Assembly: GCF_001619985.1 (NCBI RefSeq)
Contig: NW_017264201.1
Coordinates: 1,116,001-1,180,000 of the forward strand
DNA length: 64,000 nucleotides
Direction of reading: 5' to 3'
Origin: Xylona heveae TC161
Lineage: Eukaryota; Ascomycota; Xylonomycetes; Xylonales; Xylonaceae
This document shows positions 6,742 to 61,427 of this stretch, piece by piece. Numbering within the stretch: position 1 is the stretch's first letter; every line of letters begins with the position of its first letter. Made by a program: the position numbers and the translations under genes. The notes under the pieces are model-generated. The model was not told where the DNA came from. It did not search any database and worked only from the letters and a program-made list of their open reading frames with translations.

Positions 6742-7955
6742 CTTGACCTTGAAATTATTTTGTTAGTGTTCATTTATTTTTGCCATAGAAAGCCAACTTC
6801 GGGGTGAGTGGAGTGTGAGAGGGATATCTGTAACCCCGAGCACTTTCAGAGATTAGAGCACTCAGACTGGTATCTTTATAAAGAGACCAATGAATCGAGG
6901 CTAAAGCTCCAGCTTCCAGACGTAAACTCGAAAAAGTCGAACTGAGATATCTAAGAATGCCCACTCAACATTTCAGGCAGAGTCTCATACCCCTGATTAT
7001 TGCACATGAATATCAAGCTCGACTTTCTCAGACCGGCAGGCTTCATTGTTTGGTTAAGCCAGCAGGTACCTGGAGCCAGCTTGGCTCAGGTCCAAGTCTG
7101 AACCTGCTAGCTTAAATCAAGAATGATGGTACTGGAAAGCATATTCTTCTGGACAAGATATTGGTCTTTCTCAGAAGCCGAGACTCTGGCACTGATTTAT
7201 AATGCAGTTTAAAGGAAGTAGAAAAGAAAATCTTGTAGTGACTTACACTTGAGAGTCGCGACCGGGTCACTGGGCGCGTATCTTCGAGCCCGTCGCGTAA
7301 CAGGATAATTTGCCCCTGAAAGGTACTATTTGGTTATCCTGTTCAAAAGATTTAAAATCCTTGAAAGTTTCAAGGTATGATCAAATAAGTCAATACCTAG
7401 GTAGGTAGTCAAACACTCATCAGTAACAGAATGAAATGGGTGCTAGACTTGGTTGAAAGAGATGATACAAGGAAATAGTTTAGGCTAATAGCTTAAGTTT
7501 AAACTCAGATGGTCACCCTCAATTCATATTCACTTACTACCTAGGTAGGTACCTAAACTTTAGAAGACCCTAAACTAATGTAGGTAACTCAGGTAACTAT
7601 TTTAATTGGCCAGCTTTACTAAAGTACTTCAAGACTTCAAGAATATGTCTATATTCCAGAAGTTCAAATAGTTTTAGAAAAATCTAAATTCCAATCATAA
7701 GGTTTGAGATATGGTTAACTTCATGATATAGATACGTTTGTTTTAAAGATTATATTAAATTGCATCAAAGCATCCCCAGATAGGTTTTACAGTTCTACTT
7801 ACTGGGCTGTTGTCACCCACGAAAGACAAGAGCCGCTTCACTCTGGGCCATTAAAACACCCCTCTTGATGACGCTTCTTATAATTTTTTAAAGGGTATCA
7901 TAAGTATTAAATCAATCGCAGGCGCTGGAACAGGAAGACTTTGAGTGTAGTAAAT
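6742..7955. other. Intergenic region with hairpin and CCTAGGTAGGTA motifs
   Basis: This 1.2-kb stretch holds the DUF262 promoter (right side of that gene) and the 3' flank of IPI1. It has no supportable gene. Two copies of CCTAGGTAGGTA lie near 7398 and 7541. A GC-rich hairpin sits at 7257-7297. Confidence 0.6.
7257..7297. repeat. GC-rich 41-nt inverted repeat (hairpin)
   Basis: CGCGACCGGG at 7257-7266 pairs with CCCGTCGCG at 7289-7297 with one bulged base. An inner GGGC/GCCC pair nests inside. It stands in otherwise AT-rich intergenic DNA. It does not fold as a tRNA. Confidence 0.5.
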
Positions 7956-9156
7956 TCAGAACTCCCTTGAATAACCTTCCATTCCTTCGGACACGGCTTT
8001 CCGAACACTGGCCGCGGCCCGTCCTACCTCACCGCCTTCCTTTCTCGCATTGTCCAACCCCCGTTCAATTGTCGGCTGGAACTTCTCAGCAAAAATGCCC
8101 TGCCGATCTTCTCTGTCCTCGTACATCTCACTTTCTTCGTCTCGTGGTGCGCCAAAGAGGTTCAGGTGAGCGAAACATGCCGAGCGCTTCGGTAAAAGAT
8201 GCTGCTCTGTTTGCCAGAGTGGAAACGTTATGATGTCTTGTTTTCCTATCAATCCATCCTCCGTTGGCGGGAGAAGGCCCGTACGGAGGAAAAGTGCCAG
8301 CGCATGCAATTTCTTCACTAGGTATTTGCCGTCTGATCCCGCCTTTCCAAAAGTCGGCTTCGCTGTCCCTGCCAACGACGTGGACGTCGATGTCCACTTC
8401 GACGCTGTACCAGTCTCCACCCGCCATCCCAGCAGTGCCAGGAAGCATTGTAACGTTTTCACCCACCCTCCCGCACATGATACTACTTCCAATCCTGACA
8501 CATCTAAAAGCCATTCGAGCAGGTCGAGCGACGAACTTCGGATGTCGGGAGCCAGGTGCGTCATCCCGGCCCGAATGTAGAGAAGAATTTCATCGACATG
8601 GTCATCGACCTCATCACCCGATAAACATTTCACTAACTTGAGGAGCTGCTGCCGAACGCCGCCAGAACCATCGAGCACGAGTGGGAAAAGTTTCGGAAGT
8701 ATGACCCCAAATGGCTGCGGCGGGGGTGTGTGAACAGGTCGCGTAGAAAGTGCAGTCGTCAGGAATGAAAGAGATTCTCGTCGCTGTGTGTCAGAGCGGT
8801 GCGTAAGCAAAGAGAGGTGATGATTGAACAGCGCGGCTTGAGTTGGTGCATTTGCGGCAAGAGATTGCTGGTTTACAACGATAGCTGTGGATTTCTTAGC
8901 CCAATGAACCCCACGGATTCGCAAGTACATTCCAGATTTGAAGAGAAAGGGTTTTGATAAAGGCTTTCTTACGCACCTTTAGAACTGAAACTAGTGTCCG
9001 TAAAATTCGATGCCTTGGGCTTTGTCTTGCCGACTTTGAGCTTCGCTTTCTGTTTGTTTTGTCAGTAAATTACTCTTGGAGGACAAATTTTTCGTTAGTA
9101 AATCCCACCTGAAAATCCTGCTTCTTCTCCTTCTTCTTTTTTGCGCTGGAGCCCAT
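7956..9156 (-). CDS. IPI1: Pre-rRNA-processing protein Ipi1 (TEX10 family)
   Basis: Nuclear component of the Rix1 complex, needed for ITS2 processing and 60S maturation. Exons on the minus strand: 9156-9109 (16 codons, MGSSAKKKKEKKQDFQ), 9049-8977, 8884-7956; 349 aa in total. The Lys-rich start, then a segment with DTSF and AIVVNQQSL, then helical repeats (LFNHHLSLLTHRSDTQRRES, LPKLFPLVLDGSGGVRQQ), match the Ipi1 family. The start at 9156 is far more convincing than an in-frame ATG inside intron 2, since it restores the family N-terminus. It diverges from the roadblock gene. Confidence 0.92.
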
Positions 9157-19938: not shown

Positions 19939-20633
19939 TAATCTATGCCGGGGATTATGACAGAATTCATTAAACTAGTAAATCCGGGACAAGTATTAAA
20001 AATTGGAGAGAATAAGAGGGAGTACACTTTCTCAGTGTAACTCTGTATAAGGTGCTTATCAACCCTCACAAGACATGGGATAGTTATTCCCGGGTATTTT
20101 CTGGTTATCTCCGCCCAGCAGCGGAGCTAAGTGATAGCGCCTGTAGCTCTCCCGAATGTAACTGTCAGACCTGTCAGTTAGGCTTAGGGCCGAGCTTACG
20201 CTAACCGTATCGAAGTATTGGAAGCAAGCTGCTCCGCGCGGGCGGCTTCTACCAAGTTATTGTCCCCGGGCTATTATTAAAATAAGGATCCCGTACGGAG
20301 GTATATATTTGGAGAATTTCAATAATATAGTACGTACGACCATAGACTGAGGAGAACTGGGCATCCCGTCCGCTCTGCCATACATAAGCCTCAGATCGGC
20401 GGACTAGTAGTTGGGTCGGTGACGACCAGCGAATCCCCGCTGTTGTACGTTATTTTTCTCCCTCTTCTATTTATTTATTTTTCTTTTCTTTTTTTGGTGG
20501 GTAGAAGGAAAGTGATCAATTTTTGTCACAGAATGTATTTTCACTGATAATTTTCAACTCATTATGATAATGAAATGGTGGAGATAAGAAATTCCATTTC
20601 CTATATACAATGTTCGTATACAACGTAAAAGTC
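19939..20633. other. Intergenic region upstream of Zn2Cys6 gene
   Basis: These 695 bp hold the promoter of the Zn2Cys6 gene and the 3' flank of POP1. A small hairpin CTCCGC...GCGGAG lies near 20108-20126. No gene was supported. Confidence 0.5.
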
Positions 20634-23600
20634 TCAAATTAATTCCCACCGGGCTAAACGGCCAATACCATGTCCTGCTTCACGAACGATACATAGCGTC
20701 CCTGGCGCACTTCCAGGTGGGCCACCATGCTGAGAACCATCAAGAAGATTTCCAAGAGAAAGACATCCAATGGACGTTGCGCGGCCTTGTCCGAGGTTGA
20801 AATTTCCCGTCGTCACAAACCCGATGAGATCCTCTGCGTCAGGAACAACAGGATAGTCAGCGTCGCCGGCCTGGGGGACAAACTCGCTGCCACTTCTTCG
20901 CTGTTGTGCAGAAGGGACGCCGTTGAGAAGCGACGCGGCAAGCTCTTGCCGGCGGAGTATATGAGATGAATGCGATGTATTATCTTTTTCAGTTGGTTTA
21001 GGGCCTTTATTCTGCTTTCTGCGACTACGCGCTGAAGGGTTAGACGGGTCGAGAGAGAGCCATTTCGCGCGCAACGCAGGGTTATTCGAGGGTAGACGAT
21101 AGATGCGTGCGCAAGACGTCGGGACACCGCGGGCCAAGAGATTGATTCTGACGGTGCAAAGCGCGGCTCTGAGAAAAGAAGAATCATCGCGGGAAGCAGT
21201 GTCCACTCCGAGATCATGCAGTGCCTGAGGAAGCTGCGTCCGCTTTGAAAGAATCTGCTGAGTCACAGCAAGTGGGAGGTGGATCATGCCGTGTGGTAGC
21301 AGCAGAGACGGAGAAACTCCTGACGTGGAGCTCGGGGGATCGTGTTCTTTGATCGGTGGAGGAGGCACGCACGCGGCGGCGGCGGCGGCGTCGGCGTCTT
21401 GCATTTCAACGTCGTTTGAAGAAGACTTGGCCAGTGAATGTGCGGGCTTTTCGTCAGAAGAAGAAGAAGTAGTCTTCTGCTCCTTTGAATCGGAGTTGAA
21501 TTTGGCATTGAACAGGACTTCCCAATCGCAAGCCCATCCATCGCCGATTTCTCCTTTTCGGCCTTGGCCCAGATCCAAGCTGGTCCATTCAATTCTCTTC
21601 CCTTTGGGCCGGCGCGTCCAGTCGTCCTTTCGTTTTGCTCGTTCTTGCAGCTCCCATTCCCAACCTGCGCGAGTGCCGGGGTAATCTCCGGGAAACCAGG
21701 GACTGGAAGATTCAAAAGCCACTTGTCGTAATTCATTGAGGCCGCCGAATCTGACATTTCCACCTGATGATAAAGGGTAGTACATGAGCGAGTACCATAC
21801 GGGCAGAACGCATTTCCAGGGCAACAGGACAGTCCATGTGCTTTGCACGGAAGATCTGTTGCGCGAAGGGTAAATGATAATAGGTATACGAGGATCCTTT
21901 GGAAGGGCCTCCGGGTATTGTCCCGGCAGAGCAAGAGCTTTTCGTCTATTGATCGCTTTCTGGCTGGGAAGTTGGCGTGATGCTGTGAGACGAGCGGTGC
22001 GATCGAAAAGTGTGGGCGAAGCCTGGGAATTGTCCGGCGGCCAAGATGCCATTATGCGCAGGAGCTCATAATCTGCGGTACATTCTGATCCTGGCTTGGA
22101 GACGGTTCGTGGAGGATGGTGCAGGCGGGGATCGGAGATGTTGAAGCCGAGGAGAACACAAGATGGGAGGGCGGCGGGATTTGTCAGGCCATTCAAGGCG
22201 AGCCATGTGTGTTCAGGGCTACCAGACGTGTATGCTCCTCCTTCTTGAGCCTGAGAAGGCTTGAGCGTCCCAAGAAGCGCCTCCGTGGAGGCAGGACCTG
22301 TGATCTCAATACTGCCAATCTCGAAGCGCAGATCCTCGACGGAGATTTGCGGCCGTTGCGTCTTGGCTATTGCGACAAGCTCGTCCCATAGTTGCAGAAA
22401 TGCCGAAGGCTGTACTCTGATGAAGATTCTTCTCTTCAAAGGCGACTTTGAAGACCTTTCTGTGGCCATTTCACTGGTGGGGTTTCTAGCGCACCACATG
22501 ATTGTCACCGACGCAATCGCGTCGCAGGGACAGGCATTGCTTTTATAGACCCAGCCTTCCCAGGTCCTGGAACCATTACGCCATTTGATCCCCTTTTTCT
22601 CCCACAAGCCGTGACTTTCTGCTGTTTGTCCCACGCCAAGCTTCTTGAGCATGCCCTCAAGGCTCGTTTCGGTTCCCTCGAGCCCAATCGTGGACATGTA
22701 ACTCATGTCCCATGCCACTGCGCCTCGAGCAGTGCTAGCTCGATGAGTCGGACGATAACTCTTCTCAGACGGTCTCAGCGGAATTGCGAACCTCCAGAGC
22801 GGGTATCTTGGTTCCGTTAAATGGGCGCGTTTGGTGTGAAATATGTGTGTAGGTAGCCAGGTCTTATGAATTTGCCGTTTACGGTATTTGGAAACTGGTT
22901 TGGGCGGCGCTTTCAGCGTGTTGCGTTTGATTTTGGGAAGTTGTAGTCGCACAGTGTTGGCGCGATCCAATGACTGCTCATCATCTCGTGTTTGCGATGC
23001 CTCCTTTTGAACCTTTGCCTTCTCGCCAAGTCTCTGTAGTCTGCTTGCGATATTTTGCCGCAGCCGCATGTGGTGAGTAAGCTCTCGTCGCCGGGCTGTC
23101 ACGGTGGGTGTATTATCCTCTGCCATCTAGATTTTGTTGACCGGTCAGCGCATAAACTTGTAATAGATGCCACGGATACCATAGACCAAACATAAGCCGT
23201 CTGATAGAATGCAAATACACTTACTTCCCGCCCAGCCCTCCGTCTTAACCTCTTCGGCACCCTCTTCACATTGTGACTTGCAGTCCTCCTCCTTAGATTT
23301 CGTGGGACTTGCTGGAAAGCTCGGGTGGTCAAGGCTCCCTTTGCGCGGCCCATACTATCCTCGAGCGCGCGGATTTCGAACTCCCGCGCCCGTACAAATC
23401 TATCCACATCCAATTCGCCATTCCCATTGAGAGCTTTATCAGATGTTTGAGCAGCAATAGCACGGGCATCTTGCGATTTTGCTCGTCTCCGTGACTTAAA
23501 GTTGGAGTTTTGATTTGGTCTGGCATTGGCACCGGGTTTGTTATTCCGCTGTATATCCTTCCCTTGTTGGCCTTTGTTGCCCATAAATTTTGCCCTTTTG

Positions 23601-23686: not shown

Positions 23687-24021
23687 GGCAAAAAAAGTGT
23701 TTTTCGATCCCCAGGAGCAGTCTATTTGTTGACTAGGCTGTAATTCTGAGCTGAAATAAAATCGGAGCTTGTGTCAACTTTGCTTCGGCCGTTATATAAT
23801 GCGCGGATCGTAAAGTGAAAATGTTTTTGATGAGGAGGGTTTCGGCGTCAATTGAAAGCGTAGGTCGGAGGTCCCATGATGTTGAGCTGTAGTAAAATGT
23901 ATATTCTGCTATGCTGCGGAATTGATTTTTTGTTTTTTTCTCCTTGGACAACCTTGAAAGAAAGAATGGAACTGAGCTTAGTGTTGGTGACATTACAGCA
24001 GAAGCGCAAACTCCGATGCTT
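23687..24021. other. POP1 promoter region up to transposon
   Basis: These 335 bp separate the POP1 start from the left end of the transposon inverted repeat. No distinct site was recognised. Confidence 0.5.
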
Positions 24022-24141
24022 CCAAGGCTCGAAGGAAAAAGTCGTTGCGCCCCTCCGGTCGGGGGGTGACTTGCGAAAGTTGGTTAGGTACATGGGATCA
24101 CGTTGAGAGATGATGCCAATGATCTTGGGATTAAATTCCAT

Positions 24142-25218
24142 CTAATACTGGGTCTGAAGCCCCTTTCTATCTATACATTCAGCGATGCGTTGTGGCATCT
24201 GCTTAATATATTGATTGATTTCTTTGTAGGTGATTTTGTCCCACTCTATTATAATTGCCTCCCATAGCTGTTGAGGAGTTTGAGGCTTCCACTGTTTAAC
24301 CCACTGTTTAAGGATCCTCCATATATTCTCAATAACATTAAGATCTGGAGAGTGTGTAGGCCAGTCATTAAAGTAGAGAATTCCTTGAGATTCCTTAAAT
24401 GCTCTGACTAGATTATGAAGACTCCTTGTTCTATGAGATCCATCATTGTCTTCTTGGAGTATAAAGGATTTGTTATGTTTCCTTGATAATTCTTTCATCT
24501 CTAGAGCTATAACTCTTTCCAAAATCTTCTCCAAATACTCTTGTTGAGTTAAGTTACCTCCTTTACCTCTTGTCTTATAAAAGACTAGGGGAGATTTGTA
24601 GTTATATCCTACCATTGCCTAACAATGAAAGACTAAAGCATGTCTTTTCTCCTTAAATTGTATACAATCAAGGCAATTTCTTTCTCCTTTTGTCCAAATA
24701 ACCCATTTAGTATTCTTTGCAAAAGGAGCAAAATGTACTTCATCTATAAATAGACAATTTAACCAGTCTAACAAGAGGTAGTTTTGACAAAAATTCTCCT
24801 GCTATTGTTGTTAAGAAGGGCTAAGATACTCCCTTTGACAGGCTTTACATTTATGATAACTATGCTTAGCCATTGAGTTCTAGATTATATCCTTACAAGC
24901 ATTGATTCCTAACTCCTTTTCTAAATTCTCCCACCCTAAGATATAGACATTATAGTGGCCATTTAGGTAGTTGATGATGTATTTAATGTCTTCATCCTTT
25001 AGGATACAAGGGTGGCCTAATTCTTTCTTGGTATGATGGAGGTTGTTTTGGAAGTTAGTGATATACTAGATTGTACAAGGGGAGACACTAGTCAATTCAA
25101 AGATTGTATCTTTCTTCTTCCCTCACTATTTGAGGGTAATAATGTAAGTCTTCATAGGAGTATTGTACTCCCTTAGGGACATGATGGGTCTACTTTGGGT
25201 TGATGAGCTATGAACCAT
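24142..25218 (-). pseudogene. Tc1/mariner-like transposase, left copy (decayed)
   Basis: Read on the minus strand from ATG 25218 to a stop at 24142, 359 codons in one frame, interrupted by several in-frame stops. The catalytic (DDE) part is well kept: LFIDEVHFAP (first Asp), QEDNDGSH (second Asp) and HSPDLNVIENIW (Glu), as in DD34E Tc1-like enzymes. The longest uninterrupted piece is 24142-24615. The stops fit CAG/CAA to TAG/TAA or TGG to TAG/TGA changes, as expected of C-to-T mutation. The N-terminal half, where the DNA-binding helices belong, is more decayed. Confidence 0.88.
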
Positions 25219-25222
25219 GGTT

Positions 25223-25313
25223 AAGGCTCCCAAGTAGCACCCTAAGTACTACTCTTGATTTGAGAGGTCACTCTGACTGAGAGGGGTGCAATGACTTTTT
25301 CCTTTAACCCTTG
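25223..25313. repeat. 91-bp spacer of the inverted dimer
   Basis: This spacer is a mutated copy of the sequence directly right of the dimer (26515-26607). The differences are C-to-T on the plus strand, mostly at CpG or CpA (for example CTCGATTCGAG against CTTGATTTGAG). It therefore shows a second copy of the flank caught between the two elements. Confidence 0.85.
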
Positions 25314-25317
25314 AACC

Positions 25318-26394
25318 ATGGTTTATGGCTCATCAACCCAAAGCAGACCCATCATGCCCCCAAGGGAGTACAATACTCCTATGAAGACTTACATCATTAT
25401 CCTCAAACAGTGAGGGGAGAAGAAAGATACAATCTCTAAATTGACTAGTGTCTCCCCTTGTACAATCTAGTATATTACCAACTCCCAAAACAACCTCTAT
25501 CATACTAAGAAAGAATTAGGCCACCCTTGTATCCTAAAGGATGAAGACATTAAATACATCATCAACCACCTAAATGGCCACTATAATGTCCATATCTTAG
25601 GGTAAGAGAATTTAGGAAAGGAGTTAGGAATCAATGCTTGTAGAGATACAATCTAGGACTCAATGGCTAAGCATAGTTATCATAAATGCAAAGCCTGTCA
25701 AAGGGAGTATCTTAGCCCTTCTTAACAACAATAGCAGGAGAATTTTTGTCAAAACCACCTCTTGTTAGACTGGTTAAATTGTCTATTTATAGATGAGGTA
25801 CATTTTGCTCCTTTTGCAAAGAATACTGAATGAGTTATTTGGACAAAAGGAGAAAGAAATTGCCTTGATTGTATACAATTTAAGGAGAAAAGACATGCTT
25901 CAGTCTTTCATTGTTAGGCAATGGTAGGATATAACTACAAATCTCCCCTAGTCTTTTATGAGACAAGAAGTAAAGGAGGTAACTTAACTTAACAAGAGTA
26001 TTTAGAGAAGATTTTGGAAAGAGTTATAGCTCCAGAGATGAAAGAATTATCAAGGAAACATAACAAATCCTTTATACTCCAAGAAGACAATGATGGATTT
26101 CATGGAACAAGGAGTCTTCATAATCTAGTCAGAGCATTTAAGGAATCTCAAGGAATTCTCTACTTTAATAACTAGCCTGCACACTCTCTAGATCTTAATG
26201 TTATTGAGAATATATAGAGGATCCTTAAATAGTGGGTTAAACAGTAGAAGCCTCAAACTCCTCAACAGCTACAGGAGGCAATTATAATAGAGTAGGACAA
26301 AATCACCTACAAAGAAATCAATCAATATATTAAGCAGATGCCACAACACATCACTGAATGTATAGATAGAAAGGGGCTTCAGACCCGGTATTAG
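25318..26394 (+). pseudogene. Tc1/mariner-like transposase, right copy (decayed)
   Basis: Plus-strand counterpart of the left copy, same length of 1,077 bp, from ATG 25318 to TAG at 26392-26394. It starts MVYGSSTQSRPIMPPREYN and keeps QEDNDG and SLDLNVIENI-type blocks. It carries more stops than the left copy in the last 500 bp, for example TAA for CAA in the block AACTTAACT(C/T)AACAAGAG and TAG for TGG before the PDLN region. Confidence 0.87.
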
Positions 26395-26514
26395 ATGGAA
26401 TTTAATCCCAAGATCATTGGCATCATCTCTCAATGTGATCCCATGTACCTAACCAACTTTCGCAAGTCACCCCCCGACCGGAGGGGCGCAACGACTTTTT
26501 CCTTCGAGCCTTGG

Positions 26515-26918
26515 TTGAGGCTCCCAAGCGGCACCCTAAGTACCACTCTCGATTCGAGAGGTCACCCCGACCGAGAGGGGCGCAACGACTTTTTCCTTCA
26601 ACCCTTGTTCGGATATTTTTACGCCGACCCCGAACCTCGTTGGCCTGAACAGTGATATCCCTACGACAGCCGGGACTGGAGAATAAGCCACTTCTACCCT
26701 TGATTGTGACATTTGCAATAATATGCACTTTACCCATGATTCATATTGTCAGAGAAGATGGAGAAAATTAGATAAGGTTAGTTATTAAATATCTGGTATA
26801 CAAATACGTGGTTTTCTCCTACAAGGAGGAGCCTGAGCTAAAAACTTATATTAATGGCCGCAATAATAATTGGGGTATTAATATCAAAATACACTTGAAA
26901 TGGAGACGTTGCTCTGGA
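26515..26918. other. Flank of transposon with second terminal-repeat copy
   Basis: The first 93 bp (26515-26607) are the less mutated version of the dimer spacer. They hold a perfect small palindrome CTCTCGATTCGAGAG and another copy of the motif GACCGAGAGGGGCGCAACGAC. The rest to the cry-DASH stop is unremarkable; the open frame at 26395-26655 is not a gene. Confidence 0.6.
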
Positions 26919-28988
26919 TCAAGCAATAGCCTCTTCCAAAGTCGCGGCATTATCCATTCGCCCCATATTTTGCTTGCGGCGCGGGGTTTCATCAGTTGTA
27001 TGTCCCTTTGAACCGCCACGTCCACCGCCTCGACCTCTGCTCCTACCCCTGCCCCTGCCCCTTGCCCGCCCCCATCCTCTTCCACGACGATGATTGCTGC
27101 TCCCTCTGCTAGTACCTTGGGCTTCTTCAGCAGCATTCGCTTCATCATTCAGGTCATTCCTTCCTTGCCCTTCCTGCTGACGATTGCGGTTGCCACTCGC
27201 GAAGGTTCCGGAACCTTTAGACGGCTTGCTAACATAAAAGTCAATACGCTTCAGTGGATTTTCCACCCATTCGACTCCCTCCAGTCCCAAAGCTTTTCGC
27301 TGATCCACAGGAAGCCTCCATGCTTGGAACACAGCTAAAGGATCCTCAACATCTCTCAGTTCAGGCACCCATGTTTTCACGTACTCCCCTTGCGGATCGT
27401 AGTCAAAGGCCTGTTTAATGGGGTTAAACACGCGACCTTCACCTCGCGGGTCATTCCCCACGCCGGCATTATATTGCCAGTTCCCCCAGTTGCTGCTGAC
27501 ATCATAATCGACAAGTTGTGTCTCATACCATTCAGCACCTAGGCGCCAGTCAATCCGAAGATGCTTGGCTAAGAAGCTCGCAACATTTTGACGAGCCCGA
27601 TTTGAGGTGTAGCCCGTCAGATACAGTTCACGCATGCTTGCGTCAATGAGACCTGTTCCGGATCGGCCCTCGAGAAAGCGCTGCAGAGCCTCAGCGGCAT
27701 CAACGGCGCTGTTGCTATGGCGTCTCTTGTTTTTCCTTTCGGCACCATCAACGTATTTCCAGGGGACAGACTTGCCGTGCCGGAAGCCGTCAATATGAAA
27801 TAATCGTGCGCCAAACTTGCGTGTGCACAGCCGCATATAATCACGCCAAAGGAGTTCGAACCGGACAGCGGCAGTGCCTTTGTTTTCACCATTGCCATAG
27901 CCAATGGCGTCACTGCCGAGAGCGCTCGAACCGTCTTCAAATTCTAGAAGGTACTCATGGACCTGTCTCGCGGTGATGCAGCCCAATGCTAGCCATGCGG
28001 CAAGTTTCGTGCTGAAATCTTCGCCCAAGAGGCCATTGCGTGTGTCCTTGTAAGCGCTCATGCTCCCGGAAGTTACGAGGTGCTTGATGCGCTCATGACC
28101 TGCTTTTTCACCACCGCTGAAGGGAAAGGCTGAATTTGCGCCATTCGGCCATTTCGGTGGATGTTCGAGCTCGTCGTCATTATGGAGAGGTTTCTCAAGT
28201 GCTGCTATGAGATTTTCAAGCGAGGATGGCTGAACAAAAGGCGATGATTGCGGGGGGATTGAGTCTGGCAGCGGGAGCAATTGTGACGGCGGCGGGACAG
28301 ATTTTCTAGGAGCCTCACGAAGCGGCTCAACCATCTTTCGGTATGAAGTAAACACATCCGGCAATTCTTTCGGATCTTGGAATGGTATATCTCGACTGGG
28401 CCCCAAATCAATACTAATTTCTTTTCGTACGTAAAAGATAAAAATGTAAGTGGCTGACAAAACTTACTCATCAATGAAATATTTCTCATCCTTCCAAAGT
28501 TGGAATTCTTTACCCTCTGCCTCAACCACGGTTCGCACATTTTCCTCGTCCTGCTTCTCCTCCCAACCTTCCTCCTCTGTCATCCAAACGGCGGACACCT
28601 CCCCATCAAGTGTTTTGTATGCCTCTAGCATATCCTTGATAACTTCACTTGTTACGCCCACGCGAATTTCCAGTCCGCTGCCGACTTTCTCCAAGGAACT
28701 CTTCGTATCCCATACGCTTTCGGCGAGGAATTTAACACGATGGTGTCCTGTTCTCCAGAAGCCACCGACCTTCGATCGAGCTTCTGCATAGGGAGAGTCT
28801 GTTGTGCCTGGGGATAGGAAGCCCGATACTTCAACTTGCTGAGCTGGAAATACATAAAGAGGTAGTAGATGAGTAAAAGAAGCATTCTGGGAAGATCGAA
28901 GAACGCGAGAGACTTCGTGCAATATTGGATTATCAGCCAATCGCAAATCACGACGAAGGACATAAATCAAGATTCGAGATGAAGTCAT
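26919..28988 (-). CDS. Cryptochrome DASH (photolyase family) with RG-rich tail
   Basis: Exons on the minus strand: 28988-28468 and 28413-26919; 671 aa. It is a FAD blue-light photoreceptor or ssDNA-type photolyase. The N-terminal photolyase domain starts ILIYVLRRDLRLADNPIL. The FAD-binding region shows STKLAAWLALGCITARQVHEYL, RFELLWRDYMR, TGLIDASMRELYLTGYTSNRARQNVASFL and the DASH-typical WRLGAEWYETQLVDYDVSSNWGNWQY. Beyond the fold, residues about 607-643 form an Arg/Gly-rich tail (RGRGWGRARGRGRG), as seen in some fungal DASH proteins and common in RNA-binding proteins. A GATC pair upstream (29464-29476) may be a light-response element. Confidence 0.95.
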
Positions 28989-60348: not shown

Positions 60349-61427
60349 CTGCAAATCTCTCTTTTCCACCTTGCCTCTCCAACGACCGCCTTTACAGTTT
60401 CATCACTGTGTTTCTATGATATTTGCGGCTCAGGGCATTTTGCGATTTGTCAGTTATTTTCATTGTCGGGAGTTTTCGTGACGGATAGAAATACCCTTAA
60501 TTTACGATAGTTACGATGTCTCTCCAATATCATTACTACGACTGCAATCTAAGCAAATATACATGCTACGATTACCGCCATGCAACCAAACTTGTCTCCA
60601 TGAATGAAGGGTCCGTACTCTATATCTTTGGTGCTAGTTGCGGGGATAGTTTCGTTGGTCTTTAATATAGTCTCTTAAGTCAACGCAGTTCTTGAGTTGA
60701 AACCCAATCTCCCGGGATGCCTCCCTACCAACGATGGGCGACAACGGAGGTAAGTCTAGTACGGTAGAGAAAACCGAGGGGACGGGAAGAGGGACGGGGC
60801 GTCGGCACCTTTCTGGTATTTAGCGCCAACTGCCGTCACAGTAGCAGGACCCCGGTTTATCGCTAAGGGGCTGTCCTGCCAATTCAGTTGAGAGTCAGGG
60901 AGCACGTGGGGGTTTGAATCGCACGGAACACCCGTTCCCCTTCCCGCCCAAAGCTGTCTGACTGTGCCTCGACTCACTACTACCACTGCAATGGGTAGGT
61001 AATCTCGCAATAATTCCACAGCATTAATCTTAGACCATGCTCTCTCTCCATATTTTGCACCTCATTAGGTGCCCATTCGCATCTGATATATTAGAACTAA
61101 ATCGATAGTACGGGCAGGGGTCATAGCGATTAATACGATTAATATTATCTGCTTTAGGCCCGCCCCGCTTCCTGTCACGCCTGGTACTAAGGGTAGTCAT
61201 GCCATCGTAGATCTCCACGTCTTTTTTTCTTTTCTTCCTTGACTCTTCTTTTTTTCTACTGTTACTTAGGCAGAGAGATGCCGTCATGAGTCTGTTTCCT
61301 TACGGGTTCATCAAAGTACGAGTTGTGTGAAGAATTGCCGTTGAATCCATCCTGATCAACGCGAGCGACGTTAAGCGCTGTCCTTTGCCTAGGACAGGAC
61401 TTGTGAACCGCAGCTTTATTATTCAGC
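60349..61427. promoter_or_regulatory. Promoter region of phosphate transporter gene
   Basis: About 1.08 kb. It holds a PHO box at 60903-60910 and otherwise no clear sites. The last 250 bp contain a T-rich run (61221-61258). No other gene supported. Confidence 0.55.
60903..60910 (+). promoter_or_regulatory. CACGTGGG PHO box (Pho4/NUC-1/PalcA type)
   Basis: CACGTGGG is the high-affinity binding site known for Pho4-family bHLH factors that switch on phosphate genes in low phosphate. It lies about 520 bp before the start of the phosphate transporter gene. A chance match of 8 bases in 1 kb is unlikely but possible. Confidence 0.6.

Follow-up and report, generated by a model that had tools for sequence, protein, structure and literature searches.

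A 2.6-kb palindrome in Xylona heveae, probably formed by inverted self-insertion of a Tc1-like element and mutated by a RIP-like process

In the genome of Xylona heveae TC161, two transposon copies lie head to head around a short spacer, and the question is how such a palindrome arose and what has happened to it since. We analyzed it within a window of 64,000 nucleotides (the whole stretch of DNA under study) and searched the genome for related sequences (24.28 Mb in 17 contigs, where match counts from DNA searches are lower bounds). The first-pass annotation had described inverted-repeat arms of 1,201 bp and a 91-bp spacer, and these positions and lengths stand: the arms lie at 24022-25222 and 25314-26514 (1,201 nt each), are 96% complementary and enclose a spacer of 91 nt. 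Their base-by-base alignment is gap-free and shows 52 mismatches, 100% of them transitions. With a 14-base seed, the palindrome is the sole inverted repeat of at least 60 nt in the 64-kb window, which excludes a chance origin. The spacer is, as had been proposed, a mutated copy of the stretch to the right of the dimer, since it differs from the 91 bp outside the palindrome at 12 of 91 positions, every time by a transition. The head-to-head arrangement also holds, with transposase coding frames diverging from the palindrome centre. In contrast, the equal length of the arms, taken earlier as a sign of a single event, tells nothing, because an inverted repeat by definition has arms of the same length. 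The neighbours in the window are POP1 domains (20634-23126) and a photolyase FAD domain (26919-28460). The features of the locus are:

24020-24022, no strand: left copy of the outer 3-bp target duplication, TTC (edge sequence)
24023-24055, plus strand: left terminal inverted repeat of 33 nt, with 94% complementarity to 26575-26607 (inverted-repeat search and alignment)
24023-25222, minus strand: arm A, the first copy from its left end through the GTT target (inverted repeat and model fit)
24142-25221, minus strand: frame range holding the transposase remnant of arm A, 7 in-frame stops
24189-26385, no strand: CpG-free stretch, the hypermutated zone (flanking CpGs at 24188 and 26386)
25220-25222, no strand: GTT, arm-side entry site of the second copy inside the first
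25223-25313, no strand: spacer R*, the 91-bp right end of the element, oriented as after a flip (CpG absent; differs from the outside copy by 12 transitions)
25281-25313, minus strand: terminal inverted repeat at the end of the spacer (inverted-repeat search)
25314-26513, plus strand: arm B, body of the second, inverted copy (inverted-repeat search)
25315-26394, plus strand: frame range holding the transposase remnant of arm B, 14 in-frame stops
26481-26513, minus strand: left-type terminal repeat of the inverted copy (direct-repeat match)
26514-26516, no strand: GTT, second copy of the inner 3-bp target duplication
26517-26607, no strand: R, right end of the first copy (91 bp), beyond the palindrome and with all 7 CpGs preserved; the unmutated reference for the spacer
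26608-26610, no strand: right copy of the outer target duplication, TTC

The element dimer spans 24023-26607. Of the bounds given earlier (24022 to 26607), the right one is correct; on the left, base 24022 belongs to the flank and the element begins at 24023. The dimer measures 2,585 bp, that is, 2 x 1,291 + 3 bp, so both copies of the element are complete. A complete element of 1,291 bp is read from 24023 through the GTT at 25220-25222 and continues with the 91 bp found at 26517-26607; it starts with CAAGG and finishes with CCTTG, and its outer inverted repeats are 33 nt long and 94% complementary. At the left edge of the dimer GATGCTTC is followed directly by CAAGG, and at the right edge CCCTTG is followed directly by TTCGG. 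TTC hence adjoins the dimer on both sides, and both insertion sites carry 3-bp duplications, TTC at the outer and GTT at the inner one. From the letters, the target duplications could also be taken to be 2 bp long (TT, AA), with the third base belonging to the element.

Regarding the family of the element, both copies had been called Tc1/mariner-like, and the open part of arm A agrees, matching DDE_3 with an E value of 7.9e-13 (window ORF). Two relatives with open transposase frames, at C12:166761 and C1:2303130, are 54-55% identical to this 157-residue open part, and the protein of one of them, L051, shares 42-44% identity with the two arms over most of its length. These two relatives, L050 (L050:2263-3593) and L051 (L051:2200-3532), have inverted ends of 117 and 118 nt, match DDE_3 and HTH_Tnp_Tc3_2, and differ from each other at 17 of 1,331 compared positions, all by transitions. 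Read from their flanks, their target duplications are apparently 4 bp long, GGGG (inside a G run) and CGAG. A PDB search with L050 at E 0.01 returned the Sleeping Beauty transposase as its only match. Besides, the genome holds a decayed Tc1-like relative (L072, C10:746144-747145), 26% identical to the L051 protein and interrupted by two TGA and two TAA stops.

The dimer element thus resembles the IS630-Tc1-mariner group in DDE_3, in HTH_Tnp_Tc3_2 (in its relatives), in its terminal inverted repeats and in its length of 1.3 kb. Unlike the usual members, it has TTC and GTT in place of the TA target duplication that is a Tc1/mariner hallmark, and 39 residues between the second D and the E in place of the 34 of DD34E; L050 also has 39, and L052, described below, has 34. 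Members of the Zator superfamily duplicate 3 bp, as the dimer element does, while its nearest relatives apparently duplicate 4 bp. Judging from these features, the element would work as a Tc1-like transposon minus the TA target and the 34-residue spacing. Such departures are known, since excerpts of PMC9977792 give DD34E as the usual IS630-Tc1-mariner motif, with DD37D, DD37E, DD38E, DD39D and DD40E as exceptions, and excerpts of PMC7386202 give TAA and TAAA as targets of Fot and Fot-like elements.

How the two copies came together was assessed by fitting models to the whole dimer. In the double Ds structure, one copy lies inverted inside another. Such a self-insertion, with its target duplication, matches the locus once the spacer is taken as flipped: all 2,585 positions then fit without gaps, with 64 differences, all of them transitions. 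Without the flip, the same nested-inverted model leaves 117 differences, 35 of which are transversions. Three other arrangements were rejected: direct nesting, which gives 917 differences; two side-by-side insertions, as the right end of the second copy is on the far side; and a separate small element as the centre of a perfect palindrome, as the spacer equals the right end of the element.

We consider it probable that a nested inverted self-insertion, a spacer flip and RIP-like mutation together explain the locus. The 1,291-bp Tc1-like element would first have resided at TTC. Into this element an identical copy, which may have come from the sister chromatid, would then have inserted in inverted orientation, at a GTT that is followed by the last 91 bp of the element. 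The GTT would thereby have been duplicated and the 2.6-kb palindrome created. Recombination between close inverted repeats turns over the intervening DNA, and recombination between the 1.2-kb arms would have flipped the 91-bp spacer in this way. A RIP-like process that recognises repeats would finally have changed C to T in arms and spacer, at CpG first and then at CpA, leaving untouched about 80 bp at the outer end of either arm, the 91 bp beyond the palindrome and the flanking DNA. We infer the order of these steps, the flip and the involvement of RIP; against this reading, the flip that it requires has left no other trace. The empty site expected from it is GATGCTTCGGATA.

The flip would be unnecessary if the dimer had arisen in one step by alternative transposition, with the left and the right end of the element taken from different sister chromatids and both joined at the element's own GTT, giving A-R-A'-R. 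RIP-like mutation would then have come after this event, or had started before it. Such a joining predicts the observed orientation of the spacer and needs no other copy of the element, and none was found in the genome. Alternative transposition is known mainly from hAT and P elements and is rarer than nesting; from the sequence alone, its product is indistinguishable from that of nesting plus a flip. For maize Ac/Ds, excerpts of PMC3744419 describe sister-chromatid transposition accompanied by inverted duplications. We regard this one-step origin as possible, if on the unlikely side. More doubtful is its broader version, in which a fungal Tc1-like family with 3-4-bp non-TA targets formed the dimer between sister chromatids, and the palindrome then acted as a potent RIP trigger while the dispersed other elements escaped.

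The first-pass annotation had offered aberrant inverted transposition or fold-back repair as examples of an origin. The former comes close to both scenarios above, and the latter is disfavoured. It is established that replication template switching and fold-back repair can produce inverted repeats without a transposase, but their breakpoints would fall anywhere, whereas here the junctions match the element ends and two elements plus 3 bp account exactly for the length, which argues for self-insertion by transposase. We consider an origin by either of these mechanisms very improbable. Palindromes are also a known type of assembly artefact, and our data are the assembly sequence; yet an inverted chimera of a single copy does not account for 52 transitions between the arms and 12 between the spacer and the outside copy, and the likelihood of an artefact is negligible.

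Coming back to the nested self-insertion and its mutations, the change in the spacer had been noticed before, but the C-to-T mutation of the arms had been missed. The CpGs at 24188 and 26386 are 2,198 bp apart with no other CpG in between; the window counts 3,309 CpGs, and its next longest gap is 439 bp. This CpG-free zone is contained within the palindrome and reaches neither its outer ends nor the unique flanks. The 91 bp outside the palindrome keep 7 of 7 CpGs and the spacer has 0. Both arms retain all 6 CpGs of their outer 80 bp; in 24101-24263, 5 further CpGs can be inferred, each lost in at least one arm, and deeper inside none can be inferred. Elsewhere in the window, the second-longest gap (7296-7735, 439 bp) falls in a region around 7251-8000 where GC is low and the TpA index high. 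A genome search with 6950-8050 matched itself alone, and the gap maybe marks an old mutated repeat. At 20001-20500 and 60501-61000 the TpA/ApT index is high and GC is not low.

The complete absence of transversions among the 64 differences has a probability of about 5e-12 if one third were expected. If the outside copy represents the original state, 12 of 12 changes in the spacer are C to T or G to A. On the top strand they affect CpG in 7 of 7 cases, CpA in 2 of 6, CpC in 1 of 12 and CpT in 0 of 7; on the bottom strand, CpG in 1 of 7, CpA in 1 of 2, and CpC and CpT together in 0 of 13. CpG loss is therefore strand-biased (7/7 on one strand vs 1/7 on the other, p=0.005). Among the changes private to one arm, with C or G taken as original, we counted CpA 32/310, CpG 6/44, CpC 9/262 and CpT 5/334, so that CpA is favoured over CpT and CpC combined (14/596, p=6e-7). 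A strand-run test within the arms showed no clustering of one-strand changes (p=0.72 and 0.58). Before the common end of the frames, arm A has 7 in-frame stops and arm B has 14. Of the nine that are private to one arm, arm B has 8 and arm A has 1; opposite all nine, the partner arm encodes Trp or Gln. Of two RIP indices, only TpA/ApT is raised in the arms (0.92-0.94 vs 0.66 in the rest of the window), and (CpA+TpG)/(ApC+GpT) is not lowered (1.28-1.36 vs 1.32); this result and the lack of strand runs count against RIP. Read from the affected contexts and the private stops, the mutation of arms and spacer fits a RIP-like process; RIP itself operates during the sexual cycle.

A rival explanation for the mutations only, compatible with any structural reading, holds that the inverted repeat attracted CpG methylation and that the methylated sites were then deaminated, with no part for RIP. 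CpG is indeed the most affected context, as the top strand of the spacer illustrates, and cytosine methyltransferase genes are present: PF00145 has 4 matches in the genome, at three places. One of these methyltransferases, L057, carries a BAH domain. For L058, Pfam gives DNA_methylase only and the best PDB match is the HaeIII methylase, one of the bacterial methylases; L058 may be a relative of RID/Masc1, and L059 may be one of DNMT5. The presence of these genes likewise agrees with RIP. Against deamination alone, CpA is favoured in the arms too, 7 of the 8 CpG changes in the spacer are on one strand, and the copies are separated by no transversions or indels, so that little time seems to have passed. 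Deamination in place of RIP is in our opinion rather unlikely. The first-pass annotation had further suggested a cruciform or hairpin RNA that feeds small-RNA silencing; with Piwi and RdRP matches in the genome, silencing through hairpin RNA from the palindrome would be possible.

The stops also bear on the timing of the mutations. Six are common to both arms, compared with 2.6 expected if the arms had mutated independently (p=0.007), and the excess persists in the inner 200 codons alone (p=0.013). This suggests that mutation began before the duplication, or was copied between arms. If part of it is older than the duplication, the transposase would come from another copy. The 91 bp outside show that the right end was undamaged when the duplication occurred, although it may have been spared merely for being an end, like the left 80 bp.

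A DNA search of the genome with the dimer gave no further copy: besides the locus, there was one 66% match, at the C1 relative. With the right end, the locus itself was the only match. Solo ends or MITEs were sought with a 17-base core, which at up to 3 mismatches had 148 matches where the reversed control had 159; its 4 occurrences with at most 1 mismatch all fall in the dimer locus. A scan of viral contigs with the transposase of the relative gave 4 pattern matches and confirmed no relative. Another Tc1-like family is present as five 1,351-bp DD34E copies with TA at both outer ends (L052-L056, on C1, C1, C3, C3 and C6), which are identical, with 0 differences in 10 of 10 pairs. They are apparently a recent burst that escaped mutation, hence RIP is not acting on every repeat.

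In order to contextualize the locus, we compared it with known systems. In maize double Ds, as here, an inverted copy sits inside a copy of the same kind. Excerpts of PMC3260210 and PMC3744419 deal with the maize elements, and sister-chromatid transposition of Ac/Ds likewise gives inverted duplications with target duplications; here, unlike in maize, the element is fungal and Tc1-like, has a 3-bp target and a flipped spacer, and the dimer is mutated from C to T. In autointegration by Sleeping Beauty, piggyBac and mariner, a transposon also attacks a site within its own sequence, but the products in excerpts of PMC3952818 are circles of one excised copy, whereas here two copies remain in the chromosome. 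The Neurospora repeat-linker-repeat RIP constructs have two close repeats and a linker as well, with C-to-T mutation in the repeats and less in the linker. Excerpts of PMC11969663 describe repeats of 802 bp, a linker of 729 bp and linker mutation that depended on DIM-2, and those of PMC12543289 a k-mer shift in the repeats and not in the linker. Our palindrome differs in being natural and inverted, in its 91-bp linker, and in that this spacer is clearly mutated, against the weaker linker effect in the excerpted construct data. A surface-level literature search, in which absence is not proof, found no report of a self-inserted inverted element with RIP-like mutation.

Each component of this locus is of a known kind, and the record kept at this palindrome is unusually clear. 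It is a natural repeat-linker-repeat whose linker, unlike those of the Neurospora constructs, has an unmutated twin outside, 1.2 kb away, so that no outgroup is needed to tell in which direction, on which strand and within which limits the mutations occurred. With the five identical dispersed copies in the same genome, a comparison of RIP on close inverted and on dispersed repeats is feasible in strains of this fungus.
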